From the NCBI GenBank assembly GCA_021234155.1, contig JAJEKV010000054.1, forward strand, positions 2,765,702 through 2,829,701: 64,000 nucleotides of DNA, written 5' to 3'. Each line of letters begins with the position of its first letter. The stretch's first letter is position 1. Of this stretch, positions 1,141-51,556 are shown in pieces. The notes below the pieces were generated by a model. That model worked only from the letters and a program-made list of their open reading frames with translations. It was not told the origin of the DNA and made no database searches. This DNA is from Isoetes taiwanensis (taxonomy: Eukaryota > Streptophyta > Lycopodiopsida > Isoetales > Isoetaceae). A program made the position numbers and the translations under genes.

Positions 1141-1934
1141 AATAGGGCCAGAAACAGGGAACAATCCAACACATTAGAAGATTCAAAATCAAAATAGTTT
1201 CACATCCCCAGCTTTCGAATTTATCATCAGATATGTGTTTGAATAAACTTAGTTGGAACTAGCACTTGATTTTAACATGCTAGTTTTTTTCCTGTCAAAG
1301 TTACATTGTAAAATTCAGTATCTCACATTCAAAATTTGTTGTACTTTTTTTTGGACATATTATGAAAGCTCAATTGAAGAGCATGTAACACCAGACATTA
1401 CTTGGCATTCTGATAAACATGCAAAAATTTACAAGATATGTACGTGAAGACTTGGGCGCATGGTCCAAATCTGAATACACTCCAAGGGGCTGTTAATGCA
1501 TGGCCATACTTTTTACAATCACAGCAAATCCAACTAAATAAATAACTTATGTACAATAGATCATCAGAATGAATTGAGATCTAATATTCTCTCATTATTG
1601 ACATACGTAATAGCCACAACCCTGATCTTTTAGGGCCACTCTGCTTACAAATTGCTAAGGAAACCACTCCACACATACTATGTTGTGTACTTGAGGAGTT
1701 AATTCACAGAAATTTTCCTGACTCACTATAGCAAAATGCCAAAAACAAAGTTCAAACTTATCCACCAAAGGTCAGAACCAGCCACCCTTAATGTGTTGGT
1801 GCTCAGTATGCCTCCTTGCGAAAGCTTGAAGAACTAGCTCTTTCGAGTTGTGCAACATGTAAAGGTGAACGAACGTGTAAGGCAATCCATATCCATGGAC
1901 AAAATCTATTACCACAACTATAGAGATAGATACA

Positions 1935-3123
1935 ATATAGAAATTGGGTCGCATTTTTTAGGTGGGGTGTAATGTGGTGCTGCCACGTAGCACTCTCCTA
2001 CAATGCGGAATGGAAGATGGGTACCCAAATTCTGCATGACAGGTTCTCCCGGTTACACCTCCCTCCCCTGTTTTTTCCCCTTTGTTCCATTGTTTCTTCT
2101 TCGTGTCGGCTATGGCGTTCCTCTGTTTCTTCTCTGTCTGATTTTTCCATGGCTTTGATCTTGCGGACTGGTAAAATAACTTCGAATTTTCAGCTGCCTA
2201 CACATGAACCAAGGATCTTAGTGTTGTTGCGACTTAGAGGCAGGCTCTGATACGCTTGGAAGCTGCAACAAGACGAAAACAAAGGAAATAGCACCAACGG
2301 ATGCCAAAACAAAGCAATAGAGCACTAAATATGGAAGATGAAAGATCTGATAGCATGAAAGGACGTCCAAGAAGAAGTTCTTGGCCTATATTGGTCGCCA
2401 GATTGCCAGATTTTGGCAGCCAAAATACAAGGCAAGAATGCCGCTTCTCAATACCCTTCTCAATCTTAAGCAAAACACGTGAAGAGAACCTTTTCCTACC
2501 ATTTAAGGCAAGAAATAACCTGGATTATTGTTCCCATTCACGGATGCCTGTAAATACACTGCAGAAAATTTCATGTCCAAAGATTCTTGCCGGATTTTAG
2601 TAATCGTATACTGAAGCAACCATTTCTTGCAAATAATGTGGCCTAAAACACAGAAAACTAAAGGTTACGAAACGGATTCAAGGAAGAATGCAGAAATTCA
2701 CAGGGTCTTTTGCAAAACCGCCCTTGGTTAAGGGATGGTCGCAGACATGGATTTCGTGGGCCCAAAGAATATGCACATGCTCTAAAACCGGCCGCGAAAA
2801 CAAGCAGACAATACAGAGCTTTACCGGAATGGGGCTGGGAAATCTCATTGCACTGAAAGGATTCCCTGCTTTTGTAGCTTTCTTTGCATCACTTGCAAAC
2901 CACGACATGCAATCAAACTGCCGAGCTCAAAACTGCTTCAACAGATTAAAAAACCACTGTCTTTCTAACCACAGAATCGCCAGAAGCCACGATCAGCGTA
3001 TTTTTGGACTCAAGAATTGCCAAGCAAACTGGGGCGGCTAAGAATCAAGAAAACCGCCAAAGCAACAACCTAAGCGCCATCGCCGAAGAAAAACAGAGCA
3101 AAAAATTCTCCCCAATTTCTATA
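1935..3123 (+). repeat. Leader repeat copy 1 and following non-coding DNA
   Basis: The stretch from about 1935 to 2030 (a GGGTCG block, then GCCACGT, then AATGCGGAATGGAAG) is repeated at about 5942-6020 and in degraded form at about 7726-7800. Each copy lies upstream, on the same strand, of one of the three foldback elements. This suggests one repeat family of which the foldback is a part. The ORFs here are short, mutually overlapping and have no domain features, so I treat them as chance. Confidence 0.4.
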
Positions 3124-3249
3124 TTGTAGGGGAAAGGACAACGGTCCTGCTTTCCGGTGCAGCCGGTGACCCGCTCCCGGCTACCGCCGGTCGCGGGACC
3201 CCACCGGCTGCACCGGAAAGCAGTCCCGTTGTTCCTTTCCCCTATACAA
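3124..3249. repeat. Foldback element 1
   Basis: This is a long hairpin of about 126 bp. It starts TTGTAGGGGAAAGGACAACG and ends with the inverse, CCTTTCCCCTATACAA. The arms are about 45 bp and nearly perfectly complementary, with GC-rich inner parts. The loop contains the core GCTCCCGGCTACCGCCGGTC. The same ends and a related core recur at 6321 and 8039, but the arm sequences differ between copies. Confidence 0.8.
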
Positions 3250-3603
3250 AACATAGTCATGGGAAACGATACGGGTCCCTAAACTAAATTTCAGAAAACG
3301 GAACACGGAAATGGATAACCTGGGCATATTCCTAAATATTAATTACTCTAAATTTCTGAAATATCAAAAGAAAATTTCAGATTTTGCTCGAATTTGTGAC
3401 TCATCGCAAAGCACAACAGTACACCGTTTTCTGCATCAAAAGTAACACGGCCGTAACCGAACAAACTTTGCATAACTTACATAGATCAAAATTTGCAACA
3501 ACCTGGATCCGAAGTAAAAAAGGTAAGAAACAGAACAATCTCGTCTATAATATTTGAATTGATAATGATATTGATCATTATTGATCTACAAAATAACTTC
3601 CAG

Positions 3604-5127
3604 CTAGAATTGCTTCTCTGTAAGCATTTGCTTAACGTTTATTGGGTAGCTTTCTGTCTTATTTCCTGTCCACAATTTCTTTGTGATGATAGAATATGTC
3701 CGAGAAGTAGGATGGAACTCATCCCAAAACACATATTCAGAAGCATGCTGGCAAACGGGCACATAAGGCAAACAAGGCACAGCCCCTTTGTAGCTCCCTA
3801 GACCACAGCATGCAGTATCAGCATGTTGATACCCTGCACAAAACAAACATAAAACATATTCAGCAACATTTTACTTTAATTCTAAACCTTTTAAACCTTC
3901 TAAACCTTAAAAAAACTTTTCTTAAGATTCACAAACTGAAAAACATAAAAGAACCTTTTCTCAAAATTTACAAGCTCATAGAAAGAAAAAGTAGGAACAA
4001 ATCTTAGGATGAAATATGACGTTACCATAATGCTTGTAATTTCTAGTCACATCTTGGAGCACATCATAAAGATTGTTATAAATGAGAGTGACTCCAGGCA
4101 AAGATCTTCTGAGTTCTGTGAGCTTTTTGAAGAGCCTAGTGTTATAACTCTCTGCCATGGAATTCAAGAATAAGGCACCACTCATTGTTCTAGTGGCAAA
4201 TCTAGATAACTGAGATGGAACTGATCCCAAAGGAGATAAAGATGCTACTACAATTCTCCTTGCACCCAAATTATATAGCAACTTCAGCTGTTCTCCAAAT
4301 TGTGAAACCACCATATCTAAAAATGCATCACGAGGATATGACATTAGGAGGCGAGATCCAGGCAGCAAATAGTTATTCACTATATCGTTGCTCCCAGTGG
4401 AAACATAATACAGAGACTCTGCCATAATCTTAGATGCATTCTCTTGCCCAAAGTCAGCAGCCAACTTAGATTTCACATTTTCCAGATATTCAAGTTGCTT
4501 GTAGGTTGTGATCCGCTGACCCTGCAATATAAAGGAAGCTAAGTTATTACAAACAGAACCTTTTGATCTAATATATCCTAAAAAATAAATTGATTAGCAG
4601 CAAACTGATTAGCAGAAAAAGGAAAAGTGAAACAAATTAAGTAAGAAGGAGAGACTCACAAAGACACTGCCACTAGAGTTTAAAACTCCAGATCCAGCCG
4701 ATGCAAAATTTACACCCTTGTGGTAGTTATTTTCCTTAATGGCGATCATATAGGGAGGAGTAAGGGGCAATCCTAGAAGATCAGCTGCAGAACACAAGCC
4801 AATATCAGAAATAACATTCTTATAAAATGGAAATATGAAGGAACTCGATCAAACGCAGAAAATTCGAGAGGAAGAGCTAAAACAAATACCTAGATAATCA
4901 ACACTCAATCTCCCATTTGTGAAACGACCAGTAGGGCCTTTGGTATCAAAATCTCTGCCGTAAGGAAGAAAAGTGGCCTGGGCAAGGGTCCAAAGGACAT
5001 TATTGTTGCCACTATCCACGGTAGAATCGCCAAGGATGAAGAGGGCAGGAACCAAAGACTGATTTTGTGCTGCAGCGGCAAGACCCATTAAGGAAAAAAG
5101 GAAGAAGAGAATGGAGGCCATGGCCAT
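3604..5127 (-). CDS. GDSL esterase/lipase, four exons
   Basis: A plant GDSL-type serine esterase/lipase, probably secreted. Exons on the minus strand are 5127-4890, 4784-4660, 4521-4026 and 3833-3604, all with GT-AG borders and consistent phases, giving about 362 residues, the usual family size. Residues 1-20 are hydrophobic and look like a signal peptide (MAMASILFFLFSLMGLAAAA). Block I reads FILGDSTVDSGNNN and carries the nucleophile Ser. Block II is GVNFASAGSG with the oxyanion Gly. Block III is STGSNDIVNNY with the oxyanion Asn. Block V is WDEFHPT with the catalytic Asp and His. All key residues are present and no frame break is seen. Members hydrolyse acyl esters in the cell wall, cuticle or lipid metabolism; the substrate is not predictable here. 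The start is preceded by a hexanucleotide repeat. Confidence 0.92.
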
Positions 5128-5162
5128 GGCTATGGCTATGGCTATGGCTATGGCTAAGTACG
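5128..5162 (-). repeat. AGCCAT hexanucleotide repeat in 5' UTR of GDSL gene
   Basis: About six tandem AGCCAT/AGCCATAG-type units lie directly upstream of the GDSL start codon on the minus strand and run into the ATGGCCATGGCC start. Slippage here could shift or add in-frame start codons. I chose the ATG at 5127 because it begins the signal peptide. Confidence 0.6.
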
Positions 5163-5339
5163 GTGGCTGGCGATGGCAGAATAGAAGGACGGATTGAAAT
5201 TATAACTAAGGTGGCCATGGTGGGAAGCATGGCGGTGAAGAGTGAAGAATGGCGTGATTTTCGGCCCTTTAATCTAGGTTAAACGTGTTTGTGTTAAATA
5301 AAGTGTTTCCTATTTGATGAATTGAAGACTCTTCATCAT

Positions 5340-5466
5340 CTAAGGTTTTTCCCCCGAAAACCGGTAGTAATACGTCTGCTGCTCTCTCTTTGTACTTGGG
5401 TCCCATAGGCCAGTTGGTCTCCGTGGACGATACTATTCTATTCTATTCTATTCTATTCTATTCTAT
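5340..5466 (+). mobile_element. 5'-truncated LINE 3' end with (TATTC)n tail
   Basis: It matches the last part of the LINE at 23.2-25.65 kb: the AAGGTTTTTCCCCCGAAAAC block, GTAGTAATACG, then TACTTGGGTCCCATAGGCC, GTCTCCGTGGACGATA and a pentanucleotide tail. Compared with that LINE it lacks about 30 nt covering the second half of the hairpin block. It is a typical 5'-truncated product of target-primed reverse transcription, just upstream of the GDSL gene promoter. Confidence 0.8.
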
Positions 5467-5490
5467 CATTCAAGTTTGGTTGAAGCCTAA

Positions 5491-5822
5491 GGGTCCGGTC
5501 ACATGAAGCTGGTAACAGGGATTCTTTGCCGTTGACAGGAACTGAATTTTTTTGCTTGGGTCACATGATCCTGTCAAAGGAAGGGTTCCACGTTGCAAAG
5601 AAAGACCGGAAGCAAGAAAATTTGGCGCGCCCTGTGTGTGATCAAGAAGAGGGATTGCTGCCAAGTGCTAGAAAATCTTCCAGCTGTCCTCATCTCTGAA
5701 AGCCCGCTGAACGGATTGCTATCAACAGGGCTTCTTCCCTGTCAAAAATTGGCATGTGACCCCTTCCATTTCTATGATTGACGGCTTGTGAACCCTGTTG
5801 ACAGCATCATGTGACCGGACCC
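5491..5822. mobile_element. Tourist/PIF-Harbinger-type MITE, copy 1
   Basis: A 332-bp element with terminal inverted repeats GGGTCCGGTCACATGA and TCATGTGACCGGACCC, flanked on both sides by TAA (5488-5490 and 5823-5825). A 3-bp TWA target duplication with GGG-starting termini is diagnostic of PIF/Harbinger elements. A related copy in the opposite orientation lies at 51198-51556. There is no coding capacity, so it must be mobilised in trans. Confidence 0.85.
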
Positions 5823-5941
5823 TAACGATAACGAAGCCAAACACCATTCATTCGTTTTCATTTAATCATTGAACCATAAGTATGAACCAGCAACTCTCGC
5901 TTACTTGCCTTAAAGATGTGCAGCAACATACATAACTTAAA

Positions 5942-6320
5942 CAATACGGAAGTTGGGTCATTGCTGTGCATTTGTGTGCCGCCACGTGTCCTCGCCAATA
6001 ATGCGGAATGGAAGTTGGGGCATCCATTCCGCCCAGCAGGTAAATCTGTGCATTGTTAGCATGTAAACAGTCGGTGTAAGGTTTTAGGGTTAGGTTAGCT
6101 CACCGGGCGAAGCCCTGCTCGAAGCTTGCCAAATCTACTGCAGAGATCCATCTGCTGCCTGAAGCTTGCCGGATCTTGCATGAACTGCTTGAAGCTTGCT
6201 GGATCTTGCCGGATCTACTGCCGCAAAACACGATTTGATGCTGAAGAACACGATTTGCTGCTCCATAGCTAAAGAGCCCGAGCTTGCCGGAGAAGATAAT
6301 CTGATTCCCCACCTTCCATA
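5942..6320 (+). repeat. Leader repeat copy 2
   Basis: The first 80 bp repeat the block at about 1935 (AAGTTGGGTC, GCCACGTGTC, AATAATGCGGAATGGAAG). The GCCACGTGTC stretch is a perfect G-box, so this copy could carry a bZIP/bHLH binding site. The remainder up to the foldback is non-coding. Confidence 0.4.
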
Positions 6321-6490
6321 TTGTAGGGGAAGGGAAGCAGGGGCTCCCCTTCCGCAAAATGCGGCAGACCTGCTCCCGACTGCCATCGATCGCGAGGCCC
6401 CTGCTGATTTTGCAGAAGGGGAGCCCCGAGGAAGCGAGGCCCCTGCCGATTTTGCGAAAGGGAAGCCCCGCTTCCCTTCCCCTATACATT
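6321..6490. repeat. Foldback element 2
   Basis: Starts TTGTAGGGGAAGGGAAGC and ends GCTTCCCTTCCCCTATACA. The inner arms differ from copy 1 (AGGGGCTCCCCTTCCGC against GGACAACGGTCCTGC), yet pair with the opposite arm within the copy. The core reads GCTCCCGACTGCCATCGATC. The right arm is partly duplicated (two GAGGCCCCTGC units). Overlapping ORFs are by-products of the symmetrical GC-rich sequence. Confidence 0.8.
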
Positions 6491-6977
6491 GTTACGTCGG
6501 CGCAATCCCCGTTCGGAGATAAGATGACACTGGCAAGATCGATAGATATACCACGAAAATAGAGTAGACCAGACATCTGAGGAACATTGGAAGCAGATCC
6601 AAGCGATGGTGGAGGGCAACACAGCCCAGATTGCGTCTTTGATAGAAGAAGTACAGGCCTCCACACCCAACCTACTGAAAAAGCAACTCACCACTGAAAA
6701 GCAGCGCGTTTCCAGCATGGAGACTCGCATCCAATAGCTTAATACCATATCAAAATCTTACTTCGAACCTTTTCGTGAATAACCTCTGGCAATACAAAGG
6801 TGATTGTGCAAATTTTATTCATCAAATTTTTAGAAAATAACTCTGTCGATGTTGTATCGACGTTTTTGGGAGGCGCCGCCATATTCTGTTTCTGCACAGA
6901 CCCAATGCCCAGCTAGCTCCATACATATTCTGTTTTTGCACAAGAAGCCTTCATACACCGATGCTTATATTGGCAAG
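6491..6977. other. Non-coding stretch
   Basis: No supported gene. It follows foldback 2 and runs to the TTAA-flanked MITE. Short ORFs have no domain features. Confidence 0.35.
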
Positions 6978-6981
6978 TTAA

Positions 6982-7309
6982 CCACACATCCAGGGGATTC
7001 TCTTAAGCTAATCCTATCTAACAACATTGGATGTCCAAAGTTTAAACAAAATCCTAATTCTCTTAAGAGAATCCTATTGGGTCTCCACCCCCTCCCTCTG
7101 ATCCCAATGCTTATTTTTCACTTATTTTCATGATTCTCCATGAATAGTGTAAGATAATAGTGCAAAGAGAATTCTAAACATGAAGATAGGATTAGCTTAA
7201 GAGAATCCTAATGGAGAAGGTAGGATTAATCTAAGAGAATCCTAAGGAGAAAGTAGTATTCTCTTAAGAAGACTCGTGGCTCTTGAGAGAATCTGCTTGG
7301 TATGTGTGG
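6982..7309. mobile_element. MITE flanked by TTAA
   Basis: A 328-bp element with inverted ends CCACACATCC and GGTATGTGTGG, flanked by TTAA at 6978-6981 and 7310-7313. An inner perfect inverted repeat (TTCTCTTAAGCTAATCCTAT near 6998 and its complement near 7188) makes most of it foldable. TTAA duplication with CC-starting ends suggests a piggyBac-like origin; reading the ends as ACCACACAT flanked by TA, a Tc1/mariner-type origin, is equally possible. Confidence 0.55.
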
Positions 7310-7313
7310 TTAA

Positions 7314-8038
7314 AATTAGGGAGCCAATAAAGCTTGCGTTCATACAGTGGTCTTTTCTGCATCGGAAGCAATGGCCATCGGCGCCAGGATTGCACAAGAA
7401 GCCTCCATAGCCGCGAAAGCAAGAGCAGAGGGCTATTGTATGGAGGTGCCAGCCATGGCTGCATCAATGGCAATGTTGATAAAGAACCAACATAGAAGCG
7501 AACATGTAACCTGCATAGCAGCATTGACAAGGGCATAGACAGAGCCGTGCAGCCATAGATAGAGCTTCCTTACTCTTGCTGTGCCGTTCTTTTCTTCAGT
7601 GATACAGGTAATGACTTGGCAGAAATTTTCAGCCTGAATCGCGCTGCAGCAGAGTTTATGAGAAAGGAAAATTCAATAAAAAACTTCGGAAAGAAAAATT
7701 AGAAGCAAAAAATTGTTACAGATATCAATACCATAATTGGGTCGTCCATTTTGTCGATGGTGTAATCTCATGTCGACACCTGTCCTATGCCAATATCACG
7801 GAATAACAATCGGGCACACAAATTCTTGATGACTTGTAGAACCGGTGGCTTTTTGCACACAAGCGACCAGAAGCGACCAGACAGATCCGGCTATGGTGGT
7901 TCCAGATCCGGCGATGGGGTTTCAATGGCAATGGTGTTTCAGATCCTGCAGGGCTGGAGAGCTAACATACGCCATAGCTAGGAGCTTGAGCCAAGACGCA
8001 AATAGAGCAACATAAAAAACGACTCCCTAATTATGGTA
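7314..8038 (+). repeat. Non-coding, with degraded leader repeat copy 3
   Basis: About 7726-7800 resembles the leader repeats at 1935 and 5942 (ATTGGGTCGTCC, CAATATCACGGAATAAC). The rest has no recognisable gene. Confidence 0.3.
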
Positions 8039-8195
8039 TTGTAAGGGTAAGCTAACTGGTCCAAGATTCCCAGTTAGCTGCTCCCAGCTCTGCTGGTTGC
8101 AGCTAAACTAGGAATCTTGTCCTAGTTAACTGCTCCCGGCTCCGCCAATCGCAGCTAAACTAGGAATCTTGTCCCAATTAGCTTACCCCATAACA
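8039..8195. repeat. Foldback element 3 with duplicated core
   Basis: Starts TTGTAAGGGTAAGCTAACTG and ends AGCTTACCCCATAACAA. The core is present twice (GCTCCCAGCTCTGCTGGTTG and GCTCCCGGCTCCGCCAATCG), each framed by arms of the AGCTAAACTAGGAATCTTGT type. The arm sequence is unrelated to copies 1 and 2, but the ends and core are shared. Confidence 0.75.
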
Positions 8196-9269
8196 AGATC
8201 TCCTCCAAAATGGGCAAAATTTGAAGCTGGTTGAAATTTCATTGGGTAATTTTCGTGAGAAAAAAATTTCCATGGGGCTGCCAAAAATCTCATCACGAAT
8301 TTTATCCTCATGAAAATTACTCTCACAATTCTCAACAATGCAGTTATATGAAGATGCTGAGAAGATGCCCACTCGATATTATGAAGATGCCTACTATTGA
8401 GAAGAAAAACATGTTTTCCAGTGCAGGCTTTAACGAGCTCTCGAACCCAAATCCGGCCTGCATCCATCACTGGAGCGGACTGCTTTCTGCCACTTAATGT
8501 ATCCTTTGGATTTTTCAGTCTCGGTGTCGGAGATAATCGGTTTGGTTGGGTTGAGTGAAGTCTTAGTGGTATTAGAATGGAAACAACAGAAAGAACTGGA
8601 ATGGCGGATTGCGACTTGGGATCCCAACACTTTGTAATACATGGCTACTCTTCAGTTAAGGGCATGGGTTCGGGAAATACATAGCGAGCGAGGTTTTCAC
8701 AGTTGGGGGCTATGAATGGCGATATATTTCTATCCTGATAGAAAAGAGGTTGAAGACTCTTCATATATATCTGCATTCATCACTCTGTTAAGCGACAACA
8801 CAACTATGAGGGCTTTGCTTGAATTAACCATTGTAGATCAGTCTGGGAAGGAAGGCATAAGGTGCACAGCCATTTCGGTACTTCTCTTGTGTTGGAATTA
8901 TGGTCATGCCTGATTTTCAACATAAGTGACATTTGGTATAGGCCAGAGTTGGACACGTGTTGGAAAGAGCAATAAAAGAGGCGATTGGCAAATCGTAAAG
9001 GACGGGAGACAGAGAGAGATAACAGAGAGGAAGATCGGGAGGTGAAGGCAGATTTGAGTTCGATCCAGGTACTGCATTTGTTGGATGCAGGTATATCTGT
9101 GAATAGCCGGATATGAGCCAAAATCTAAGGCTGTAGAAGAAGCTGTGGCAGGAGAAGAAGTTTGGGCTGTAGAGGCCGAGTTGTGAAGAGCAGCTGATTC
9201 AGAGACAGGGGGAGAAGATACGGATTGTGTATCCTGCAATTTGTGTTTGAATCGGAAGTACTGGATGAT
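8196..9269. other. Non-coding stretch before copia fragment
   Basis: No supported gene. ORFs here are short and lack motifs. The last part may be decayed upstream sequence of the copia element. Confidence 0.35.
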
Positions 9270-10570
9270 GGATTTATTTGCCTAAGGACCGTGATTGCTG
9301 CATGAAAACTGATAAAAGAGATAAAGGAATCAGATACCCCTTGTGTGCAAATGGGCAATGGCAATCTGCATCAAGTAAAAGGATGCGGAAAGTTGGAATT
9401 CTATCATGACGATGAGGAAAAGGTGTGCTTAGAAAATGCTCTCTACACTCCTGGTATGTTGTTCAATCTAGTTTCTGTGGCAGGCCTAGTAGACACCGGT
9501 TATAAATTAAATTTTGATGCTTCACGCTGTGAGATGGTGCATAATGGAAAAAGGATTTACGCAAACAGAAAAGGTAAGTTATATTGTTTGGATGCCTTTC
9601 CGTGTGTTGGAAATGTCAGTTCTTTAGAATTATGGCATTTTAGATGCGGATATGCTAGTGAATGAGCAGACATAAGTTGGTAGAGGGTTTGCCTACCAAC
9701 ATAGATGAAGCAGAACACAAAATATGCCATGGATGTATGCTTGGAAAGCAAGCTACACATGCGTTCAGTCCTCGTTTCTCTAAAACCTTAGGCATTTTGA
9801 ATTTGGTGCATTCGGATTTGTGTGGCCTAATGCGTGTAGAGAGTATGAGCGGCAAAACATACTTCATTACATTTATTACATTTATTGATGATTTTTCCCG
9901 AAGGGCAAAGTGTTACTTTTTAAAATCTAAAGATCAAGCATTCCAAGCATTTCAATTATATTTAGTTGAAGCTGAACGTGAGACGTCTAGGTAGTTGAAA
10001 CGGCTGCGTTCAGATTCAGGGGGAGAGTATCTATCAGGTGCATTCATGCAGTTTTGTCGAGAAAAGGGAATACGACGTCATTTTACTTGCAGGTATACTC
10101 CACAGCAGAACGGTATTGCTGAGCGAAAGAATAGAACTCTAATTATTAATGCAGTGAGATCGATGTTGAAACATGCAGGTTTGCCTAATTACCTGTGGGC
10201 AGAAGCAGTGCAGGCCGCGTGTTACATTCAGAATAAGCTACCTTTAGAATTCGTAGAGGAGAATGTAGAAGATGAAGCTACAGAAATGGAAGATCGGAGT
10301 ATGGAAGTAAGTTTGGAAGAACAGGCTGAAGATCGAGCAGTAGAATTAGGAGATGTGAATGTAGAAGAGCCGTTGGTGGAAGAAATCCGCACAAAAAAGC
10401 GATGCAGAGAGATTGAAGGAGGAGGTATCTTTGGCACGTCAAAGTATGGAAGAGATGAGCGTGGTAGAAGCACTCGTGAATGTAGGCTACCAACAAGGTT
10501 TAGGGAATATGAATTAGGGAGTAATACACGTAAGAGCCGGCCGCCGTCTATGTTATGTATTGCCACTAGA
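9270..10570 (+). pseudogene. Ty1/copia retrotransposon fragment: GAG-pre-integrase and integrase
   Basis: Translation begins near an eroded protease region (a W-M-M-D stretch at about 9265 where W-x-L-D-S-G-A is expected), then VQMGNGNLHQVKGCG, the GAG-pre-integrase region (LYTPGMLFNLVSV; zinc-binding CHGCMLGK) and the integrase core. The DDE triad is present: HSDLCG, RSDSGGEY and NGIAERKNRTL. The frame is broken near 9660 by a shift and at 9992 by a TAG. After YIQNKLP the reading jumps to an acidic stretch and then to LPTRFREYEL, the motif normally just before reverse transcriptase. About 150 residues of integrase C-terminus are therefore missing, and RT/RNase H and both LTRs are absent. Not functional. 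Confidence 0.88.
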
Positions 10571-29985: not shown

Positions 29986-30704
29986 TGAAGGGCTTGAAGG
30001 ACGCATGTAGTGCAGTTTCCCTGCCGGCAACACATTTCTTATCATAACTTTTGATCTAGAGCTCGGTTTCAGATGATTTTTATTGCGTTGGAAAGCTCTC
30101 TCCGAGATCTTTTTGATAATGTATGATATGGATATGTTTGGATAAGTTATTTATGCTAAAACAGCAATTTTTTGGCCGGGTTTGGTAGGCTTTCACATCC
30201 TACCAGCTGATTAATACAGGATTGCGCTATTGGATATTGTTTTATGGCTCATTCCGAATGAAGCTTGCAAAAAATTACCATGCATTTTTAGATTTTAAGG
30301 CAGTTATCAAGCAAATTCCAAGGCTTCTAGATCCTTGTGCTAACAAGCAGAAAAGTTTCCCACTTTGGTTTCTCACCACAAGAATCCATGGAGGCCAAAG
30401 GCTGCTATTAAATTCCAGTTGAAAAATGTTTGTGTATGGGTGTTGCAAACTTTATGACTTTCAGAATAATGGGATCAATCTGCTCTATCTGTATGGTAAC
30501 TTTTACGTATGTTTTATTTGTTTTATTGTGATGAAATTCAAAAGCTATAGGTGATGAAAGCCTCAAATGAATTCTAGTTTTTTTCTGGTTTGAATTCTAA
30601 AATTTTTGTCACACCCTGGGTGACGTCCCTAAGGCCCCCAAGGGGCCAAAAATTTTTTTTTGCAACACAAACCATTAACATCCAACATATAAAAATTAAA
30701 TCCC
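29986..30704. other. Non-coding, retrotransposon-like flank
   Basis: About 30040-30110 holds a phrase on the pattern of ATAACTTTTGATCTAGAGCT followed by GCGTTGGAAAGCTCT, which I have seen as a common repeat in plant LTR retrotransposons. No coding region is supported. A small palindrome GTCAC/GTGAC lies near 30608. Confidence 0.3.
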
Positions 30705-31201
30705 CCAACACATAACAACCATTGACATTAACAACCAACACATAACTACCATTGACATTAATTAACACAACCATTGGGTCCAACACATTTAAATTAAAAT
30801 CCCCTTAACCCCCTTTGGTTTGGGTGCATATTCACACGGGGTGATGTAGGGGTGAGAGCCCCTCATAATTGTATTTTTGCACGTACGAAATCAACACCAT
30901 ATAGTATTCCGCTTGAAATCTTATAGTATTTTGCGAATCTTGTTATACAGTATAGCAAATTTTGTACTTGCATACCCCACAAACGAGGAACTTTACTACG
31001 GTGTAGATTAAGGAATAAGGGGTGAATATGCCTATCCAACAGCTCTCGTTGCCCGGAGTCACCCCCGTGTGAATATGCACCCAAACCAAAGGGGGTTTAA
31101 GGGGGATTTTAATTTAAATGTGTTGGACCCAATGGTTGTGTTAATTAATGTCAATGGTAGTTATGTGTTGGTTGTTAATGTCAATGGTTGTTATGTGTTG
31201 G
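30705..31201. repeat. Near-perfect inverted repeat, arms about 140 bp
   Basis: Left arm 30705-30844 and right arm 31059-31201 are reverse complements with only a few single-base differences, separated by about 214 bp. The arms contain GGTTTGGGTGCATATTCACA, AACCATTGGGTCCAACAC and a short internal repeat AACACATAACNACCATTGAC. If transcribed, this would fold into a long hairpin that could feed DICER-LIKE processing. The high identity means it is recent or maintained by conversion. Confidence 0.85.
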
Positions 31202-31202
31202 A

Positions 31203-31700
31203 GGTATGAATGGAATAAGGGGATATTAAACATAAGGGGATATTAAACATAAAAGGAGGATGGTTGAGAAGAGGGGTATGAACGGAATAAGGGGTATGAA
31301 CGGAATAAGGATATATTAAACTACAAAATCACAAAGGGGGATTGTTCTTAGAAAGGGGTATGAAAACATAAAAGGAGGATGGTTGAGAAGAGGGGTATGA
31401 ACGGAATAAGGGGTATGAACGGAATAAGGGTATATTAAACTACAAAATCACAAAGGGGGATTGTTCCTAGAAAGGGGTATGAACATTATTTGTGAGAAAA
31501 GGGGTATGACCATTGCATATGGCAATGGGGGATATAAAAAAAATTCAAATAAGGGGATATCAATCTACAAGATCACAATGGGGGGATTGTGGCCAAATAC
31601 CCCGTTTCTGAAAATCATGTCCATTCCACGAAAAGGGGGATTTTAAGGGGTTTTTTATGGGGGATTTTAAGGAGAATATGAGCATCGTTTTTTATGTGCA
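31203..31700. repeat. Minisatellite of about 120 bp units
   Basis: Units contain GGAGGATGGTTGAGAAGAGG, GGTATGAACGGAATAAGG (often twice), ATATTAAACTACAAAATCAC and AAAGGGGGATTGTTC. About two full units plus diverged fragments are present to about 31700. The ORF over the right end is not credible. Confidence 0.75.
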
Positions 31701-36388: not shown

Positions 36389-38664
36389 GTGGAACAAAAC
36401 ACTAGTCATGCTTATGATGAGACGACTCAAGATTTGTTGTACGAGCATGCTCAACTTGAGTTTCTCGTGCAAGGCATTGATAATGACATTGACAAACAAG
36501 ATATGCACGTCCCTGAGGTTGATGAAGTCATTGAGTTAGATCCAGCTGAATACTTTGATGACCAGATAATCCAGGATGCCAAAACAAAATTATACGAGCG
36601 TTGCAAAATATCGAGATTGACATTTAACTAGGGCCTCCTCAACTTGCAAGGGCAATATAACATATCAAATGTTGTAGTCAATGCAATATTAAGGTTCTTC
36701 CTTCCCTTCCTAACTCTTAATTCTCGAACATATGAAATTTTATTGTTTATCTTTGTTGGCTTAATCATCATATATTTGTGTATGCAGACTTATTTGCAAA
36801 ATATTGCCTCCTGAAAATAAGGTTCCTTCTAGTCGTTCTGAAGCACGTAAGCTCATAAAGGCGCTTGGTTTTGAGTACGAGAACATCCATGTATGTCCAA
36901 ACGAATGTACCTTATATTATAAGGACACCAAGGATATGGTTCATTGTCGTAAATGTAACGAGTCGACGTACCGTAAAGATGTCCAAGGCTCGACCATTCC
37001 ATGCAAGGTATTGCGGTATTTTCCTATAATTCCTAGACTTAAACACATGTTTAGGACAAAGGATATTGCTACCTTGATGGATTGGCATGTGAATAACTGT
37101 AGTTCTGATGGAGTTATGCGTATTCTCGCTGATTCGGAGGCATGAAGATTTATAAATAACAGATGGTCTGAATTTCAAAATGATCCAAGACATATTCACT
37201 TTGGTCTCGCAACAGATGGTTTCAATCCTTTTTTGCAATGGACAGCCTCGTGGTCCACATGGCCAATCATGCTTGTAAACTACAACATCCATCCACATGA
37301 GTCCATCAAACGGGGTCATATGATCTTGAGCATGACATGTTTGTGCAATTCATTTAGTCCTATTAGGAATTCATTTTTTTTTTATATAAAATGTAGTAGG
37401 AGTCTTTAATAATGCTGAGTCTTGATATTGCAGGCTCTTCACAACCTAAAAATTTTGATATATATCTATCACCCTTAATTGATGACTTGAAAACTCTATG
37501 GAGTGGTGTTTCCATGGTAGATATCTCTAAGAGAACATCTAGGGAGCAAAGATTTACACTGAAGGCTATATTAATGTGGACAATGCATGACTATCCTGGT
37601 CTTAGCATATGTAACAGTATCTTCTTGTTCTTTTTATTTATTTTGAGGGCATTTTTTATATGAAAATTGCATCGATAATACAAATTGTTTTTATAAAACT
37701 AAAGGTCAATATGTTTGTGTACGTTGCGGTGCCCAAATCACATCAAGATACTCTAGTTCATTGAAGAAACATGTATCGGGACATGAAAGATTTTTATCAA
37801 TGGATCATCCATTACATAGGGGAGCCCTAGAAAAAATAGATACTCCAAAGTGCATGACCGCAAGAGATTGGCTCGATCAGTGGGAACGTGCAGAAGACAA
37901 GGCATGGAAAGAGGCTGAACATGCAAGCAATGTTTATAAAGGTCCTGATAACATCATTGTCACTCCTCCAAATGGCATGAAACGAGTATCTATACTATTT
38001 GAGTTACCATACTGGCGGGAGTTGAAGTACACGACTTTATTGGATCCAATGCATATCATGAAAAATATTTCAAATTCTCTATGGCAGCATATCACGGGGG
38101 AGAAAGATAGTGTTGCTTCTCGACAAGATTGTTTATTATTAGAGCCCCCTTGTAATGCAAGTCTGACTAATTATCTGACGATTAAAACGTCAGATAGAAC
38201 TTGTCAGTACAATCGTCAGGAATAAGGGCATGGGCAGTTGTCTATTTTATAAAAGCTCTCTGACAGTTATTCTGACGTTTAGCCATCATCCTCTTGTAGT
38301 GACCCCAGCTCTGTAACTGATGAGGAAAGATAAGATAAGATAAGATGAATTTTTACGTCCACGGGAAGCTTGTACTTGTTTACACTATGTCAATCTTTGC
38401 TCGATTTTGCAGGTCTCGTTATGTAATGGATATATTTGCAATGGGCGCCACTTTCTGGTTCAGAAAAGGGATGAAAATTATGTCACTTTTGATTGCGGTC
38501 TGATATCTACTTTTGCAGTTGTAAATCACGCTAGTGCAAGGGACACGAACCTGGTAGAAGCTGATATTGAATATGTTGGAAGAATACAACAAATTTTGGA
38601 ACTTGATTTTCGACAATTCACCAGTCCTATTTCTAGTTAGATGGTTTGATGCACAATTACGAGG
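36389..38664 (+). pseudogene. CACTA/En-Spm TNP2 transposase with DUF4216 remnant
   Basis: Blocks of a plant CACTA transposase in the right order. 36389-36631 is an acidic N-terminal part (LDPAEYFDDQIIQDAKTKLY). 36804-37310 reads HVCPNECTLYYKD, then CRKCNESTYRKD, KVLRYFPIIPRLKHMF and HFGLATDGFNPF. 37412-37600 reads FDIYLSPLIDDLKTLW and RFTLKAILMWTMHDYPGLS. 37705-38225 reads YVCVRCGAQITSR and ELPYWRELKYTTLLDPMHIM, where LD-x-MH-x-x-K-N is a conserved transposase motif. 38413-38664 reads NGRHFLVQKRDENYVTFDCG and EADIEYVGRIQQILELDF, matching DUF4216, then LFLVRWFDAQLRGV after a frameshift. Stops, frameshifts and a missing middle part make it non-functional. The 3' coding end runs straight into satellite DNA. 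Confidence 0.85.
38324..38380 (-). mobile_element. Tiny LINE-type 3' stub with (ATCTT)n tail
   Basis: On the minus strand: CTTCCCGTGGACGTAAAAAT followed by (ATCTT)n. The CCGTGGACG plus short-repeat layout matches the other LINE 3' ends, but only about 30 bp of body remains. It lies in a gap between two CACTA coding blocks. Confidence 0.45.
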
Positions 38665-41600
38665 CGTGTTCCTCCAGTTCGACCACTCTACTAAGCTCGG
38701 AATGCAGTTTTGACTATGTGCATGAGTAAAAAACATGCAATTTACTTTAAGAACTATGACGCAAACTTTCGACCATTTTAGAGGCAGGGAAGGCTGCCAA
38801 AACCTAAACCCTACAGATTAGTAGGGTTTAGGTATCGGGGCACCAAAGCAGCTTCATCTGCTAATCCCACCGTTCAAATGTTAGCTCATGTCCCATGAAA
38901 CATCTCGCAAAAGAAAAAATGAACATCTACTGCACGGATGTGCCAAGCACCAAATTTTCCTCTTTTCTACATAGGGGCACGACGAAGAAATGGTGCGTTC
39001 CTCCTGTTCGACCACTCTACCAAGCTCAGAATGTGCTTTTGACTCTGTGCATGAGTAAAAAAAAAATATTACTTTAGTGACTATGCATGCAAACTCTTGA
39101 CCACTTTAGAGGCAGGGAAGGCTGCCAAAACCTAAACCGTTGTAGGGTTTAAGTATCGGGGCACCAAAACAGCTTCATCTGCTTATCCCATCGTTCAAAT
39201 GGTAGCTCATGTCCTACGAAACGTCTCTCAAAAGAAAAAATAAACATCTACCGCACGAATGTGCCAAGCCCCAAATTTTCCCTTTTCTATAGGGGCATGA
39301 TGAAGAAATGGCGTATTCCTCCAGTTCGACAACTCTACCAAGGTCGGAATGTGGTTTTGACTATGTGCATGAGTAAAAAACATCCAATTTACTTTAGGGA
39401 CCATGCATGCAAACTGTCGACTACTTTAGAGGTAGGGAAGGCCTCCAAAACCTAAACCCTACAGGTTCGTAGGGTTTAAGTATCGGGGCACCAAAGCAGC
39501 GTCATTTGCTAATACCACCGTTCAAATGTTAGCTCATGTCCCATGAAACGTCTCCCAAAAGAAAAAATGAACATCTATCGCACGGATGTGCCAAGCCCCA
39601 AATTTTCCCCTTTTCGACGTTGGGGCACGACAAGGAAATGGCGTGGTTCCCCATTTCTGCCACTCTAATGAGCTCAGAATGCTATTTCAACTTCGGATAT
39701 GAGTTCAAAACATCCAAGTTACTCTAGGGACCAACTTCCATGACCAATAGAGCTAATCTCTACTAGATATCATGAGCAACTTACTCTAGGGACCAACTTC
39801 CATGATCAATAGAGCTAATCTCTACTAGATATCATGAGCAACTAGTGGACCTCCCATGCAATGCACTCCTTGCCTAGTGCGCTAATCTAAACATAGCATG
39901 CACTAGAAAAGCCAAGCATTTGATCGATTGTTTACTCCCTAACATGTGTTCAAGGGTGACACTGGCCGTCTTGATGCAAGCACGGAGCCAAACTTTCATG
40001 TTGTGCCTTCTAGCATGCCCGATCCCACAATGTCTAGCTTGTTATGAGCCACTGCAATGACACGAGTTTGGAACCGGTGCCTAGGAAGGGGTTCTTTCTT
40101 CTCTCTCTTCAGATCTCTCTTCGGGCCCTTGAAGAAACTCTGCATGTAAGCTCTCGACTATTTTAGAGACAAAAAGGGTTGCCAAAACCTAAACCCTATA
40201 GATTTAGTAGGGTTTAAATATGACAGCATCAAAACTGCGCAATTTGCTAATCCCATTGATGAAATGGAAGTTCATGTCCCGAGAAACATTTCCAAGAATT
40301 AAAGATGGACATCCACTGCACGGGGGTGCCAACCTCCAAATTCCCCCCTTTCCCACGTAGGGGCACAATGAAGAAATGGCGTGTTTCCTCCAGTTCGACC
40401 ACCCTAACAAGATCAGAATGTAGTTTTGACTCTGTACAGAGTCAAAAACATCCAATTTACTTTAGGGCCTATGTAAGCAAACTCCATTTTAGAGGCAGGG
40501 AAGGCTGCCAAAACCTAAACCCTACATATTAGTAGAGTTTAAGTATCGGGGCACTAAAACAGCTTCATTTGCTTATCCCACCGTTCAAATGGTAGCTCAT
40601 GTCCCATGAAACATATCTCAAAAGAAAAAATGAACATCTACTGCACGGATTTGCCAAGCCCCAAATTTTCCCTTTTCTACATAGGGGCATGACGAAGAAA
40701 TGGCGTGTTCCTCCAGTTCGACCACTCTACCAAGCTCAGAATGCGGTTTTGACTCTGTGCATAAGTAAAAAAAATACAATTTACTTTAGGGACTATGCAT
40801 GCAAACTCTTGACCACTTTAGAGGCAGGGAAGGCTGCCAAAACCTAAACCCTACAGATTAGTAGGGTTTAAGTATCGGGGCACCAAAACAGCTTCATCTA
40901 CTTATTCCACCATTCAAATGGTAGCTCATGTCCCATGAGACATCTCTCAAAAGAAAAAATGAACATCTACCGCACCAAGCCCCAAATTTTTCCTTTTCTA
41001 CATAGGGGCACGACGAACAAATGATGTATTCCTCCAGTTCGACGACTCTACCAAGGTCAGAATGTGGTTTTGACTATGTGCATAAACATTCAATTTACTT
41101 TAGGGACCATGCACGCAAACTCTCGGCTACTTTAGAGGTAGGGAAGGCTGCCAAAACCCAAACCCTACATGTTCATAGGGTTTAAGTACCGGGGCACTAA
41201 AGAAGCATCATCTGCTAATCCCACCGTTCAAATGTTAGCTCATGTCCCATGAAACGTCTCCCAAAAGAAAAAATGAACATCTATCACACGGATGTACCAA
41301 GCCCCAAAATTTCCCCTTTTCGACGTTGGGGCACAACGAGGAAATGGCGTGGTTCCCCACTTCTGCCACTCTAGTGAGCTCGGAATGCTATTTTGACTTT
41401 GAACATAAGTTCAAACATCCAAGTTACTCTAGGGACCAACTTCCATGACCAATAGAGCTGATCTCTACTATATATGAGCAACTAGTGGACCTCTCATGCA
41501 ATGCACTCCTTGCCTAGCGCACTAATCTAAATATAGCATGTACTAGGCAAGCCAGGCATTTGATCGATTGTTTACTCCCTAACATGTGTTCAAGGGTGAC

Positions 41601-43766
41601 ACTGGCCGTCTGGATGCAAGCACAGAGCCAAACTGTCATGTCTTGCCTTCTAGCATGCCCGATCCCACAAATGTCTAGCTTGTATGTTGGGGCACGACGA
41701 GGAAATGGCGTGGTTCCCCACTTCTGCCACTCTAGTGAGCTCGGAATGCTATTTCATCTTCGAACATGAGTTCAAAACATCCAAGTTACTCTAGGGACAA
41801 ACTTCCATGACCAATAGAGCTAATCTCTACTAGATATGAGCAACTAGTGGACCTCCCATGCAATGCACTCCTTGCCTAGTTCGCTAATCTAAATATAGCA
41901 TGTACTAGGCAAGCTAGGCATTTGATCGATTGTTTACCCCCTACCATGTGTTCAAGGGTGACACTGGCCGTCTGGATGCAAGCACGGAGCCAAACTGACA
42001 TGTCGTGCCTTCTAGCATGCCCGATCCCACAAATGTCTAGCTTGTTATGAGCCATTGCAAGAACACAAGTTTGGAACCGGTTCCTAGGAAGGGGTTTTTC
42101 TTCTCTCTCTTCAGGTCTCTCTTCGGGCCCTTGAAGAAACTCTGCGTGTAAGCTCTCGACGATTTCGGATACAAAAAAGGCTGCCAAAACCTAAACCCTA
42201 TAGATTTAGCAGGGTTTAAATATCATAGCACCAAAACTCGCAATTTGCTAATCCCATTGATGAAATGGAAGTTCATGTCCCAAGAAACATCTCCGAGAAT
42301 TAAAGATGGACATCCACTGCACGGGTGTGCCAACCTCCAAATTCCCCCCTTTCCCACGTAGGGGCGCAACGAAGAAATGGCGTGTTCCTCCAGTTCGACT
42401 ACTCTAGCAAGATCAGAATGCAGTTTTGACTCTACGCATGAGTCAAAAACATCCAATTTATTTTAGGGACTATGTAAGCAAACACTCGACCACTTTAGAG
42501 GCAAGGAAGGCTGCCAAAATCTAAACCCTACAGGTTAGTAGGGTTTAAGTATCGGGGCACCAAGATAGTTTCATCTGCTAACCACCGTTCAAATGTTATC
42601 TCATATCCCATGAAACGTCTTCCAAAAGAAAAAATGAACATCTACCGCACGGATGTGCCAAGCCCCAAATTTGCCCTTTTTCGACGTAGGGGCACGACGA
42701 GGAAATGGCATGGTTTCCCAGTTCAGCCACTCTAGCGAGCTTGGAATACTATTTCGACTTCAGACATGAGTTCAAAGCATCCAAGTTACTCTCGGGACCA
42801 GCTTCCATGACCAATAGAGCTAACGTCTACTCGATATGAGCAACTAGTGGACCTCTCATCCAATGCACTCCCTGTCTATGCGCTAATCTAAATATAGCAT
42901 GTACCAGGCAAGCCAGGCATTTGATCGATTGTCTACTCCCTAAACATGTGTTCAAGGGTAACTCCGACCGTCTGGATGCAAGCACGGAGCCAAACTGTCA
43001 TGTCGTGCCTTCTAGCATGCCCAGTCGCATAATGTCTAGCTTGTTATGAGCCATTGCAACGATACAAGTTTGGAACTGGTGCCTTGGAAGGGGTTCTTTC
43101 TTCTCTCTCTTTAGGTCTCCATTCCGACTCTTGAAGAAACTCTGCACTTAAGCTCTTGCTCTTGACCATTTCAGAGGCAAAAAAGGCTGCCAAAACCTAA
43201 ACCCTATAGATTTAGTAGGGTTTAAATATCATGGCATCAAAACCGCGAAATTTGCTAATCCCACCGACGAAATGGAAGTTCATATCCCAAGGAACATCTC
43301 CGAGAATTAAAGTTCAACATCCACTGCACGGATGTGCCAAACTCCAAATTCCCCCCTTTTCCACGTAGGGGCACAACGAAGAAATTGCGTGTTCCTCCAG
43401 TTCAACCACTCTAGCAAGCTCGGAATGCGATTTTGACTTTGTGCATGAGTCAAAAACATCCAATTTACTTTAAGAACTATGCATGCAAACTCTCGACCAC
43501 TTTAGAGGCAGGGAAGGCTACCTGAACCCTACAGGTTAGTAGGGTTTAAGTATCGGGGCATCAAAACAGCTTCATCTACTAATCGTATCGTTCAAATGTT
43601 AGCTCATATTCCATGAAACGTCTCCCAAAAGAAAAAATGAGCATCTACCACACAGATGTGCCAAGCCCCAAATTTTCCCTTTTTTACATAGGGGCACGTT
43701 GAAGAAATGGTGTGTTCCTCCACTTCGACCACTCTACCAAGCTCGGATACGGTTTTGACTCTGTAC
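38664..43766. repeat. Satellite array with telo-box hairpins, left part
   Basis: Tandem monomers of about 325 bp, with a second type about 85 bp longer, in a mixed order. Each monomer has GAAATGGCGTGTTCCTCCAG, TTTGACTCTGTGCATGAGT, TTTAGAGGCAGGGAAGGCTG, CCTAAACCCTA..TAGGGTTTA and ATGTCCCATGAAACATCTC. The telo-box hairpin recurs near 38802, 39130, 39450, 40186, 40513, 40841, 41156, 42188, 42518, 43195 and 43520. The longer type carries CCAACTTCCATGACCAATAG and GATCGATTGTTTACTCCCTA. A local 68-bp tandem duplication lies at 39720-39850. Short ORFs recur in each monomer in the same place but are not independent genes. Confidence 0.9.
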
Positions 43767-43771
43767 ATGAG

Positions 43772-45674: not shown

Positions 45675-45679
45675 ATGAG

Positions 45680-46190
45680 TCAAAAACACCCAATTTACTT
45701 TAGGAACTATGCATGCGAACTCTCGCCCACTTTAGAGGTAGGAAAGGATGCCAAAACCTAAACCCTACATGTTAGTAGGGTTTTAGTATCAGGGAAATGG
45801 CGTGGTTCCCCAGTTCAGCCACCCTAGCGAGCTCAGAATGCTATTTCGACTTCGGACATGAGTTCAAAGCATCCAAGTTATGCTAGCAGCAACTTCCATG
45901 ACCAATAGAGCTAATCTCTACTCGATATGAGCAATTAGTGGATCTCTCATGCAATGCACTCCTTGCCTAGTGCGCTAATCTAAACGTAGCATGTACTAGG
46001 CCACTCTAGTGAGCTCGGATGCTGTTTCGAATTTGCGCATGAGTCCAGAGCATTTAAGTTACCATAGGGACCAATTTCCATCACCAACCAAGCTAATCTC
46101 TACTCTGTATAGGCAATTAATCGACCTTTCGCTCAATGCACTTTTTGGCTAGCGTGCTCGTCTGAACCCAACATGTTCTTGAAAAATCCG
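45680..46190. repeat. Satellite array, right part
   Basis: Continuation of the monomer broken by the solo LTR (GAGTCAAAAACACCCAATTT), one more telo-box hairpin at about 45758, then increasingly diverged units that fade out near 46190. Confidence 0.8.
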
Positions 46191-50752: not shown

Positions 50753-51194
50753 AGGGGGGCTAGGATCAAGACAAGTGGACGGCCAAGATCCATGGAAAAA
50801 ATTATAAATATTATGAGGGGACTTGTTCTCCTTCTCTCTCTTGGGGCTCTAGAATCTCACATGGAGCAAGGGTAGTGGCAGCCCTGGGAAGATGGTGTGG
50901 TATGCCTCTCCCCCCATGCAAGATATCTTGAAGCTTTGTATTACCTTATTTTCTTGAATAAAGTGGTGCACTCCATTTATTTTCCTACATCTTTTCTATT
51001 ATTCTTCTCTACATTGTTTCATTCTCTATATTTTCCTATTCTCCATATTTCCATACTTGTTTCCACATTCTTTTCTTTTGCAGCAGCACCAAGTTTTGAT
51101 CCCAATCTTTGCTTTTGAGGTCGAATGATAGGGATGTGGGAAAATCCGTCATCACCTAGCTTCAGTAGACCTTGAAGCAAGCACTTCAAGCATG
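50753..51194. other. Non-coding stretch
   Basis: Pyrimidine-rich runs at 50980-51080 (TTCTATTATTCTTCTC..). No gene. Confidence 0.35.
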
Positions 51195-51197
51195 TTA

Positions 51198-51556
51198 GGG
51201 TCCGGTCACATGATGTTGTCAACAGAGTTCACAAGGCGTCAATCATAGAAATGGAAGATGCCAAATTTTGACAGCGAAGAAGCCTGTTGATAGCAATCCG
51301 TTCAAGGGGCTTCTGCATTGGTTGGAAGCATTGCCATCAATAGGGATTTCAGAGATGAGGACCGCTGGAAGATTTTCTAGCACTTGGCAGCAATCCATCT
51401 GTTGGATCACAGACAGGTGCGTCAAATTTTCTTGCTTCGGGTTTTTCTTTGCAACGTGGAACCCTTACTTTGACAGGATCATGTGACCCGAGCAAAAAAA
51501 TTGAGTTCCTGTCAATGGCAAAGAATCCCTATTACCAGCTTCATGTGTCCGGACCC
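51198..51556. mobile_element. Tourist/PIF-Harbinger-type MITE, copy 2
   Basis: A 359-bp element with ends GGGTCCGGTCACATGA and TCATGTGTCCGGACCC, flanked by TTA at 51195-51197 and 51557-51559. It is the same family as 5491-5822 but in the opposite orientation, and shares inner words such as TTGACAGGATCATGTGACCC (in reverse). The right end has one mismatch to the consensus end. Confidence 0.85.

Follow-up and report, generated by a model that had tools for sequence, protein, structure and literature searches.

The window analysed here, a 64-kb stretch of the Isoetes taiwanensis genome, contains three elements, termed c1, c2 and c3 (1315, 546 and 469 bp, respectively; Table 1), whose hairpins are the 3′ ends of larger, gene-less non-autonomous elements and not free-standing foldbacks. 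From 5′ to 3′, each element consists of a 16-bp left repeat, a variable body, an inverted copy of the repeat, a terminal hairpin and the sequence TATAC. The final three bases of the right end repeat (ATIR) of c1 are the first three of its hairpin stretch, and in the c1 fold the left side of a TC/TC internal loop stands 16 nt above the hairpin foot.

Table 1. Positions of the three elements and their parts within the window.
Feature	Position	Strand	Basis
Element c1, left repeat to TATAC	1933..3247	+	Perfect 16/16 repeat pair; alignment of the left box to 21 further copies
c1 left (5′) ATIR, CAATATAGAAATTGGG	1933..1948	+	
c1 right (3′) ATIR, exact inverted copy of the left	3111..3126	-	
c1 terminal hairpin (first hairpin of the original prediction)	3124..3247	+	131.6 bits, covariance model
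c1 left side of TC/TC internal loop	3145..3146	+	c1 fold and family position
Element c2	5942..6487	+	Left and right ATIR differ at 2/16
c2 left subterminal inverted repeat, GCGGAAT...ATTCCGC	6003..6032	+	Sequence; similar stretches in other copies, by eye
c2 terminal hairpin with duplicated 3′ arm (second hairpin of the original prediction)	6321..6487	+	72.1 bits, covariance model
Element c3	7726..8194	+	Left and right ATIR differ at 1/16
c3 terminal hairpin (third hairpin of the original prediction)	8039..8194	+	45.3 bits, covariance model
c3 left TC, at the height of the c1 TC/TC loop	8060..8061	+	Sequence and family position

Hairpins at the element ends

The original prediction placed three hairpins at these loci, and strong hairpins are confirmed there by the minimum free energies (-103.3, -102.9 and -77.0 kcal/mol for c1, c2 and c3, RNA parameters) and by fold z-scores, each relative to 200 dinucleotide shuffles, of -14.5, -8.4 and -10.6. 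When the window was scanned at 180 nt, the three lowest energies fell on the same loci, c3 only narrowly (-80.1 vs. -79.4 for a GC-rich stretch at 33391). A covariance model of 13 family members (c1 included) matched no other place in the 64-kb window with E ≤ 1, and each of the three loci scored highest on the + strand. Internal duplication had been noted in two copies and is confirmed in both: in c3 the core plus inner arm is tandemly duplicated as a 52-bp unit (self-match over 64 nt at 83%), and c2 carries a second copy of the right inner arm (29/33 alike). A proposed shared core stood in part, as a core 20-mer occurs 76 times in the genome (control, 0), although the core as first written is exact in none of the three hairpins, differing from the second core of c3 by two mismatches and from the remaining cores by more mismatches or an extra base. 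Likewise, to call the arms unrelated is too strong: c3 compared with the other two lies at or near shuffle level, but c1 and c2 align at 69-70% over 88-96 nt. A T or clover shape with side hairpins on each arm was rejected as a family rule, being strong only in some subfamilies (GGAATGGAGG type); side-hairpin folds were weaker than the rod fold in the 26 hairpins folded.

A genome-wide family with common ends

Constant ends enclosing free arms recur across the genome: the exact ends occur 172 times, against 0 for a reversed control. As copies were picked by exact ends or exact core, conservation of foot and ends is partly built in, as is that of the core in the exact-core set; neither choice constrained the arms or the arm TC/TC loop. 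Hairpin extraction required an alignment score of at least 8 between the outermost 18 bases of one arm and those of the other, which favours paired arms, and passed 105 of 139 genome loci (L002-L140), or 108 hairpins with c1-c3, rising to 121 after 13 of 17 retried loci were added; among loci chosen by ends alone (L061-L120), 58 of 60 passed, and the pairing bias is small there. Some non-extracted loci, such as L002 and L008, are chance 13-mer matches. One genome copy (L010) is 84% like c1 over 165 nt. In viral contigs the core 20-mer had a single match, in a GC-rich contig, taken as chance.

With the right repeat ending by construction at the hairpin start and the left partner searched for, a left repeat within 3/16 mismatches of the copy's own right repeat was found in 38 of 45 testable copies (control, 0/45); the pair is perfect in 23 of the 45, and 7 have no left repeat within that limit. 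In one subfamily of 24 copies, 17 are exactly 283 bp, with shared ends and different flanks. The first bases of the elements are CAAT or variants of it, with TAAT in one decayed copy, and the base before them is A, T or C. Pairing at the 5′ side, judged by eye, amounts in part of 22 copies to CAA(T)...(A)TTG of only 3-4 bp; the GCGGAAT...ATTCCGC repeat is separate and lies further inside.

These ends bear on the foldback or MITE class originally assigned, which proved wrong, the hairpins being right ends of longer elements. An ordinary cut-and-paste family inserting at TA, with the form TTG[TA]GGGG...CCCC[TA]TACAA, would explain why TA flanks the hairpin foot on both sides in c1 and c2. However, the TTG preceding the foot closes the inner ATIR, the 3′ TATAC is common to copies with different flanks, and homology extends left past the hairpin as far as a left end that the copies share. 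Comparison by eye of the flanks of 24 insertions revealed no target-site duplication, and at L060 and L141 local repeats serving as empty sites, which are analogues and not orthologous sites, share one C with no duplication. The symmetric terminal repeats and target-site duplication of cut-and-paste elements are thus not found, and such an origin is contradicted by these observations and is the least probable of the explanations weighed here.

Paired change between subfamilies

Within the youngest subfamily (23 hairpins), arm sequence follows descent, the pattern originally named as one that would refute the prediction: left arms agree with one another at 0.976 and with their own right arms at 0.863, and changes are 11 one-sided vs. 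1 paired. Looser clusters behave in the opposite way, with values, for 54 hairpins, of 0.667 between left arms of different copies vs. 0.818 with the own right arm. The prediction of self-complementary yet free arms, more alike within than between copies, therefore holds between subfamilies and in looser clusters but not in tight subfamilies. When one member per cluster was drawn at random, no more than 16 of the 28 had their own right arm as the best match. Between subfamilies, the arms change in concert while the constant foot and core stay. Among 13 subfamily representatives, hand-picked and mostly well preserved, 32 of 49 base pairs changed on both sides, a value reached in 0 of 500 shuffles; 95.4% of their 625 cells are paired, and both-sided changed cells number 118, vs. 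33 on average in shuffles and 14-25 after sliding. Consensus comparisons (41, non-independent) gave 240 paired, 159 one-sided and 34 both-sided non-pairing changes. In four clusters, 85 changes were one-sided and 43 paired, with 2 more both-sided but unpaired; the majority of the paired ones are shared by subgroups, and one of these clusters mixes two arm types, and an indel there can misalign. One set of pair counts leaves out c2 and c3 because of their duplications. The distant 16-bp ATIRs co-vary as well, as judged from 22 of 27 distinct repeat pairs, with five decayed variants (L005, L031, L033, L038, L059) omitted.

Transcribed hairpins, for example small-RNA or miRNA precursors under selection for RNA pairing, could account for the very stable folds and for the common orientation of the three window copies. 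However, G-T pairs occupy only 9 of 612 cells (one invariant G-T pair excluded), and this favours pairing as DNA over pairing as RNA; in addition, the constant part is the ends and core and not an arm, the ATIR pair that also co-varies lies outside the hairpin, and an Rfam search of the window at gathering score gave no match. A constraint at the RNA level is accordingly very improbable.

The arms also retain a conserved but unpaired feature. A TC/TC mismatch occurs at fixed height in the otherwise free arms of 8 of 11 subfamily consensuses, and among 28 clusters the match at arm positions 17 and 18 is limited to 25% and 21%, vs. 71-89% for the variable positions 7-14; the full arm loop is absent from 3 of the 11 consensuses and the core loop from 2. 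This mismatch bears on whether one arm or ATIR might be copied or repaired from its partner while the single-stranded end is folded during transposition, spreading a mutation in one step. Such templated copying is suggested by a private A-T to G-C paired change in one copy (L037) of a burst, in which the other 23 matching copies have A...T, the one-sided state is absent at that site from all copies, and 0.04 both-sided changes are expected by chance in the cluster. It is further suggested by four shared paired flips separating L040 and L049 from three relatives, and by concerted changes between consensuses that are not wobble-biased (91 transitions, 149 transversions), unlike private changes (70 to 30). 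However, saturation likewise yields an excess of transversions, the single private paired change among the 23 young hairpins stands against 11 one-sided ones, the TC/TC mismatch is kept in most subfamilies and not erased, and changes at both ATIRs would require a separate pairing step. Because the distant ATIRs co-vary and TC/TC persists, conversion inside the hairpin alone is insufficient as a general cause. Templated copying is therefore considered unlikely. The better fit of the two processes originally proposed is structural selection accompanied by paired change, and we infer that the arms are kept matched by selection and not by copying.

Proposed mechanism and relation to known Helitrons

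Taken together, these observations allow a model, to which a probability of about three in four is given, in which the hairpins form the 3′ termini of non-autonomous, Helitron2-like transposons of rolling-circle type, with arms that are free but paired. A RepHel-type enzyme from elsewhere in the genome would copy one strand and would stop, or make its cut, at the 3′ end; there the displaced strand would fold into the hairpin. The ATIRs and hairpin would be recognised chiefly by their DNA shape, together with a small number of fixed signals (foot, TC/TC mismatches, core and TATAC), so that arm sequence could change freely in amplifying source elements, provided that both arms change together, while inserted copies would decay normally, one side at a time. 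RepHel is present in the genome (at least 150 Helitron_like_N matches, from 150 scored of 1813 first-look candidates), yet among the loci examined none was linked to the ends of this family. The 6.9 kb downstream of a RepHel match at C907:35639077 held no family end, only a separate 290-bp family copy lies near the L060 RepHel frame, and the 8.9 kb upstream of L039 held neither a RepHel match nor a left repeat. One Rep query matched neither 59 other records (mostly 3-6 kb stretches) nor L142. Two candidate partners were rejected: the core paired with RepHel on C1018 belongs to a separate short copy, and the 14-kb neighbour on C1066 is also a short copy.

A different mechanism, in which self-templated copying would match ATIRs and arms in each transposition cycle and TC/TC would mark the enzyme's hold on the folded strand, is more doubtful still; it resembles, by analogy, parvovirus hairpin transfer, and if true, end sequence would drift quickly while pairing would never be lost. 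Little is known of how Helitron-type elements preserve functional ends as the ends themselves diverge. The family supplies, within one genome, about 28 natural variants of a single 3′ hairpin (clusters at 85%), separates letters that must be given (foot, core, TC/TC loops and TATAC) from positions that must only pair, and makes selection vs. end-to-end copying directly testable. In the partial literature record searched, no paper on such a family in a quillwort was found.

The portions of the Helitron2 description drawn on here give a layout of left ATIR, body, inverted ATIR and 3′ hairpin, with the right ATIR located some 20-30 bp before the 3′ end, a 5′-terminal T, a 5′ hairpin formed by the left ATIR plus following bases and, with exceptions, no target-site duplication; they also note paired changes between two related elements, Helitron-1N1_CQu and 1N2_CQu, and name Helitron-5_SMo (Bao and Jurka, 2013; PMC3627910). 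The Isoetes family agrees in having ATIRs with the left one at the terminus, a right ATIR directly upstream of the 3′ terminal hairpin and no visible target-site duplication. It differs in its single-unit hairpins of 104-136 nt (vs. an end region of 20-30 bp), in starting with CAAT and not T, in a 5′ hairpin that by eye is weak or absent in many copies, and in its fixed TC/TC loops. Since the search for a RepHel partner was unsuccessful among the loci examined, and the family lacks two of the features described for Helitron2, it is classed as Helitron2-like and not assigned as a Helitron2 member. The SMo of Helitron-5_SMo presumably denotes Selaginella. TnpA-REP enzymes, of the single-strand HUH type, offer a further parallel. 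Bacterial REP sequences are palindromic DNA thought to be spread by this transposase, and as described in the excerpts consulted they are short and lack ATIRs; the likeness is in working, by analogy (PMC8266576). FoHeli elements of Fusarium share ATIRs and hairpins, and in two subgroups the right repeat lies 38-51 bp in from the end, but in the available portions of their description these two subgroups start with TCAG, end with ATTTT and insert at TNAT/A, RepHel-bearing copies are known and the hairpins are shorter (PMC5148889). Helraiser and Helibat (Helitron1) are described, in the parts of the source used, with 5′-TC, CTAG-3′, a 19-bp palindrome, an AT target and no end inverted repeats (PMC4778049), and the family, with CAAT...TATAC and ATIRs, departs from the Helitron1 end rule (5′-TC, CTRR-3′, no inverted repeats). 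The likeness to Helitron1 lies in a 3′ hairpin that acts as an end signal with an exchangeable stem sequence: swapping the Helraiser hairpin stem left about 90% of activity, and a loop change was equivalent to deleting the hairpin (PMC4778049).

Element structure and insertion

The three hairpins of the original prediction exist and lie well beyond the chance level, and a covariance model trained on 13 hairpins of the family, that of c1 (the first element of the window) included, matched these three loci only across the whole 64-kb window, with the + strand scoring higher at each. In the genome copies, homology extends to the left beyond the hairpin, and upstream alignments lead to a shared left end with ~110 alignable bases; judging by these alignments, the hairpin is one end of a larger element. 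At its left terminus c1 carries CAATATAGAAATTGGG, a perfect inverted copy of the 16-base stretch ending at the hairpin foot, so that the layout reads left repeat, body, inverted repeat, hairpin and TATAC. Among the 45 hairpins with sufficient upstream DNA, the left repeat lies within 3/16 mismatches of its own right repeat in 38 and is perfect in 23, whereas the identical search of reversed upstream DNA returned 0/45. In the other seven no left repeat was found within 3/16 mismatches; for some of them (e.g., L013, L022, and L041) a left box was found by BLAST. The 38 elements with a left repeat span 223-1384 bp.

Extents of the three elements, in window positions
Element	Positions
c1	1933-3247
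c2	5942-6487
c3	7726-8194

A GCGGAAT...ATTCCGC inverted repeat, ~60-75 bases in from the left end in many of the 22 aligned copies, encloses a second copy of the GAAGTTGGG motif (e.g., window 6003-6032) and is possibly a candidate enzyme-binding repeat. The predicted internal duplications were recovered as a 52-bp tandem of core and inner arm in c3 (64 nt at 83%) and a repeated 3' arm in c2, and the hairpins of loci L060 and L124 carry 6-7 bp tandem repeats; slippage during hairpin copying is enough to explain such duplications. The surroundings of c1-c3 are ordinary plant DNA, as the window also carries a GDSL lipase gene, copia-type, reverse-transcriptase and kinase fragments. It further holds two inverted copies (~82%) of a different terminal-repeat element with ends AGGGTCCGGTCACATG (5488-5826 and 51194-51559), an array of long direct repeats whose similarity is mostly 63-88% (38625-43772, with more copies at 45675-46179), and a large inverted repeat with 119-nt arms, 93% complementary, at 279-nt spacing (30695-31211).

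Across the genome (1,658,258,908 bases in 1110 contigs), TTGTATAGGGGAA matched 473 times against 82 for the reversed control, the exact core 76 times against 0, and exact ends enclosing 90-120 free bases 172 times against 0, exact-pattern counts that miss decayed copies and other end types. In 24 two-ended copies (a young subfamily and its near relative L042) the flanks all differ, 17 have the exact length of 283 bp, and no flanking duplication was seen. Two copies lie in local repeats usable as empty sites: the L060 unit across the insertion reads CCTC-AAGAAG (one C counted), with neighboring units CCTCAGAAAG or CCTCAGGAAG, and the L141 left flank ...ACACCTTTGA + C + ATTACC resembles the uninterrupted ...ACACCTTTGACATTTACC. 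Both fit clean insertion beside a C without duplication, the comparison being by eye with paralogous repeats, not orthologous sites. Separately, the L039 and L050 hairpin copies are 96% alike across the full 1.5 kb upstream, and the L039 right flank shows a further match to the L050 end region (92% over 393), as though 3' ends stood in tandem. Near L039, the reverse strand of L142 (bases 5-652) holds a 216-aa open frame, which by its motif we take to be a putative tyrosine recombinase. In L060, an open frame (4709-9901) for RepHel, the HUH nuclease and helicase enzyme of Helitrons, with PF14214 and PIF1 matches, is truncated by the end of the stretch; it lies ~4 kb away from a distinct 290-bp copy of the family.

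Descent and paired change in the arms

The arms had been proposed not to follow descent but to stay paired within each copy, either because one arm is rewritten from the other or through compensatory change under selection for structure. From 121 hairpins, 28 clusters were formed at 85% identity. Among the tight clusters, left arms match one another at 0.976 and their own right arms at 0.863 in the 23-copy cluster, and at 0.900 and 0.814 in one 6-copy cluster; in looser clusters the corresponding values are 0.667 and 0.818 (54 hairpins), 0.752 and 0.792 (9 hairpins), and 0.816 and 0.829 (a second set of 6). Base-pair changes in the 23-copy cluster were one-sided in 11 cases and paired in 1; three further clusters gave 62/32 (two arm types mixed), 6/2, and 6/8, their paired changes being mostly common to subgroups. 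From these identities and counts, arm sequence follows descent among young copies, against the proposal, and paired change, as proposed, appears once lineages are compared.

Between the 28 clusters, the left arm matches its own right arm at 0.778 and others at 0.551 (permutation sd 0.016, maximum 0.620 of 5000), the own partner being the single best match in 16. In comparisons of hairpin pairs, which are non-independent, both-sided changes account for 7-18% of all changed base pairs at divergences under 10% and for 42-48% at higher ones, and 78-86% of both-sided changes are still paired above 10% compared with 44-47% at 3-10%. Among 13 representatives of different subfamilies, both-sided change affects 32/49 base pairs and 118/625 cells, against a shuffle mean of 33 (0/500 as high) and 14-25 with the partner slid.

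Selection on pairing or copying between arms

Arm positions 7-14 are variable yet agree with the partner arm in 71-89% of the clusters. At positions 17-18, by contrast, the left arm mostly reads TC and the right arm, taken in reverse, GA, and agreement drops to 25 and 21%; TC falls exactly there in 16/28 clusters, with the opposite GA within one position in 15. A TC/TC internal loop occurs at position 21 in 8/11 subfamily consensuses, being replaced by pairs in two (GGGG types) and partly present in one, and a core TC/TC loop in 9/11. G-T pairs are almost absent from the 13 representatives (9/612 cells, one invariant G-T pair excluded). We read this pattern as selection that would act on DNA pairing, with a few letters read directly. 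The persistent TC/TC mismatch argues against routine copying of one arm from the other. Conversion within the hairpin also fails as sole cause, since the two 16-bp repeats, ~0.1-1.3 kb apart, differ between subfamilies in concert, and a hairpin-confined process does not account for co-variation outside it. For 22 distinct repeat pairs, identity to the own partner was 0.955, a value raised by likeness-based pair finding and the omission of five decayed variants, against 0.743 when permuted (maximum 0.830). Arm copying is favored by a private paired change in L037, where an all-state search of 24 copies gave 23 A...T, 1 G...C, and no one-sided state. It is also favored by transversions, which make up 149/240 concerted changes against 30/100 private ones, so that concerted changes are unlike a path through G-T pairs. 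However, saturation would likewise yield transversion richness.

Comparison with Helitron2 and Helraiser

Passages of PMC3627910 describe asymmetric terminal inverted repeats in Helitron2, the right one directly upstream of the 3' hairpin, and note paired changes between two elements. From Helitron2 as portrayed there, the present family differs in its long hairpin, CAAT start, weak 5' hairpin, and lack of a proven RepHel partner, and we therefore say that it would work like Helitron2 but do not class it as a member. For Helraiser, passages of PMC4778049 report that ~90% of activity was retained upon a hairpin stem swap and that a loop change was about equivalent to hairpin loss, the authors regarding the hairpin as a termination signal. 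The same division, a free stem and a fixed core, is found in this family.
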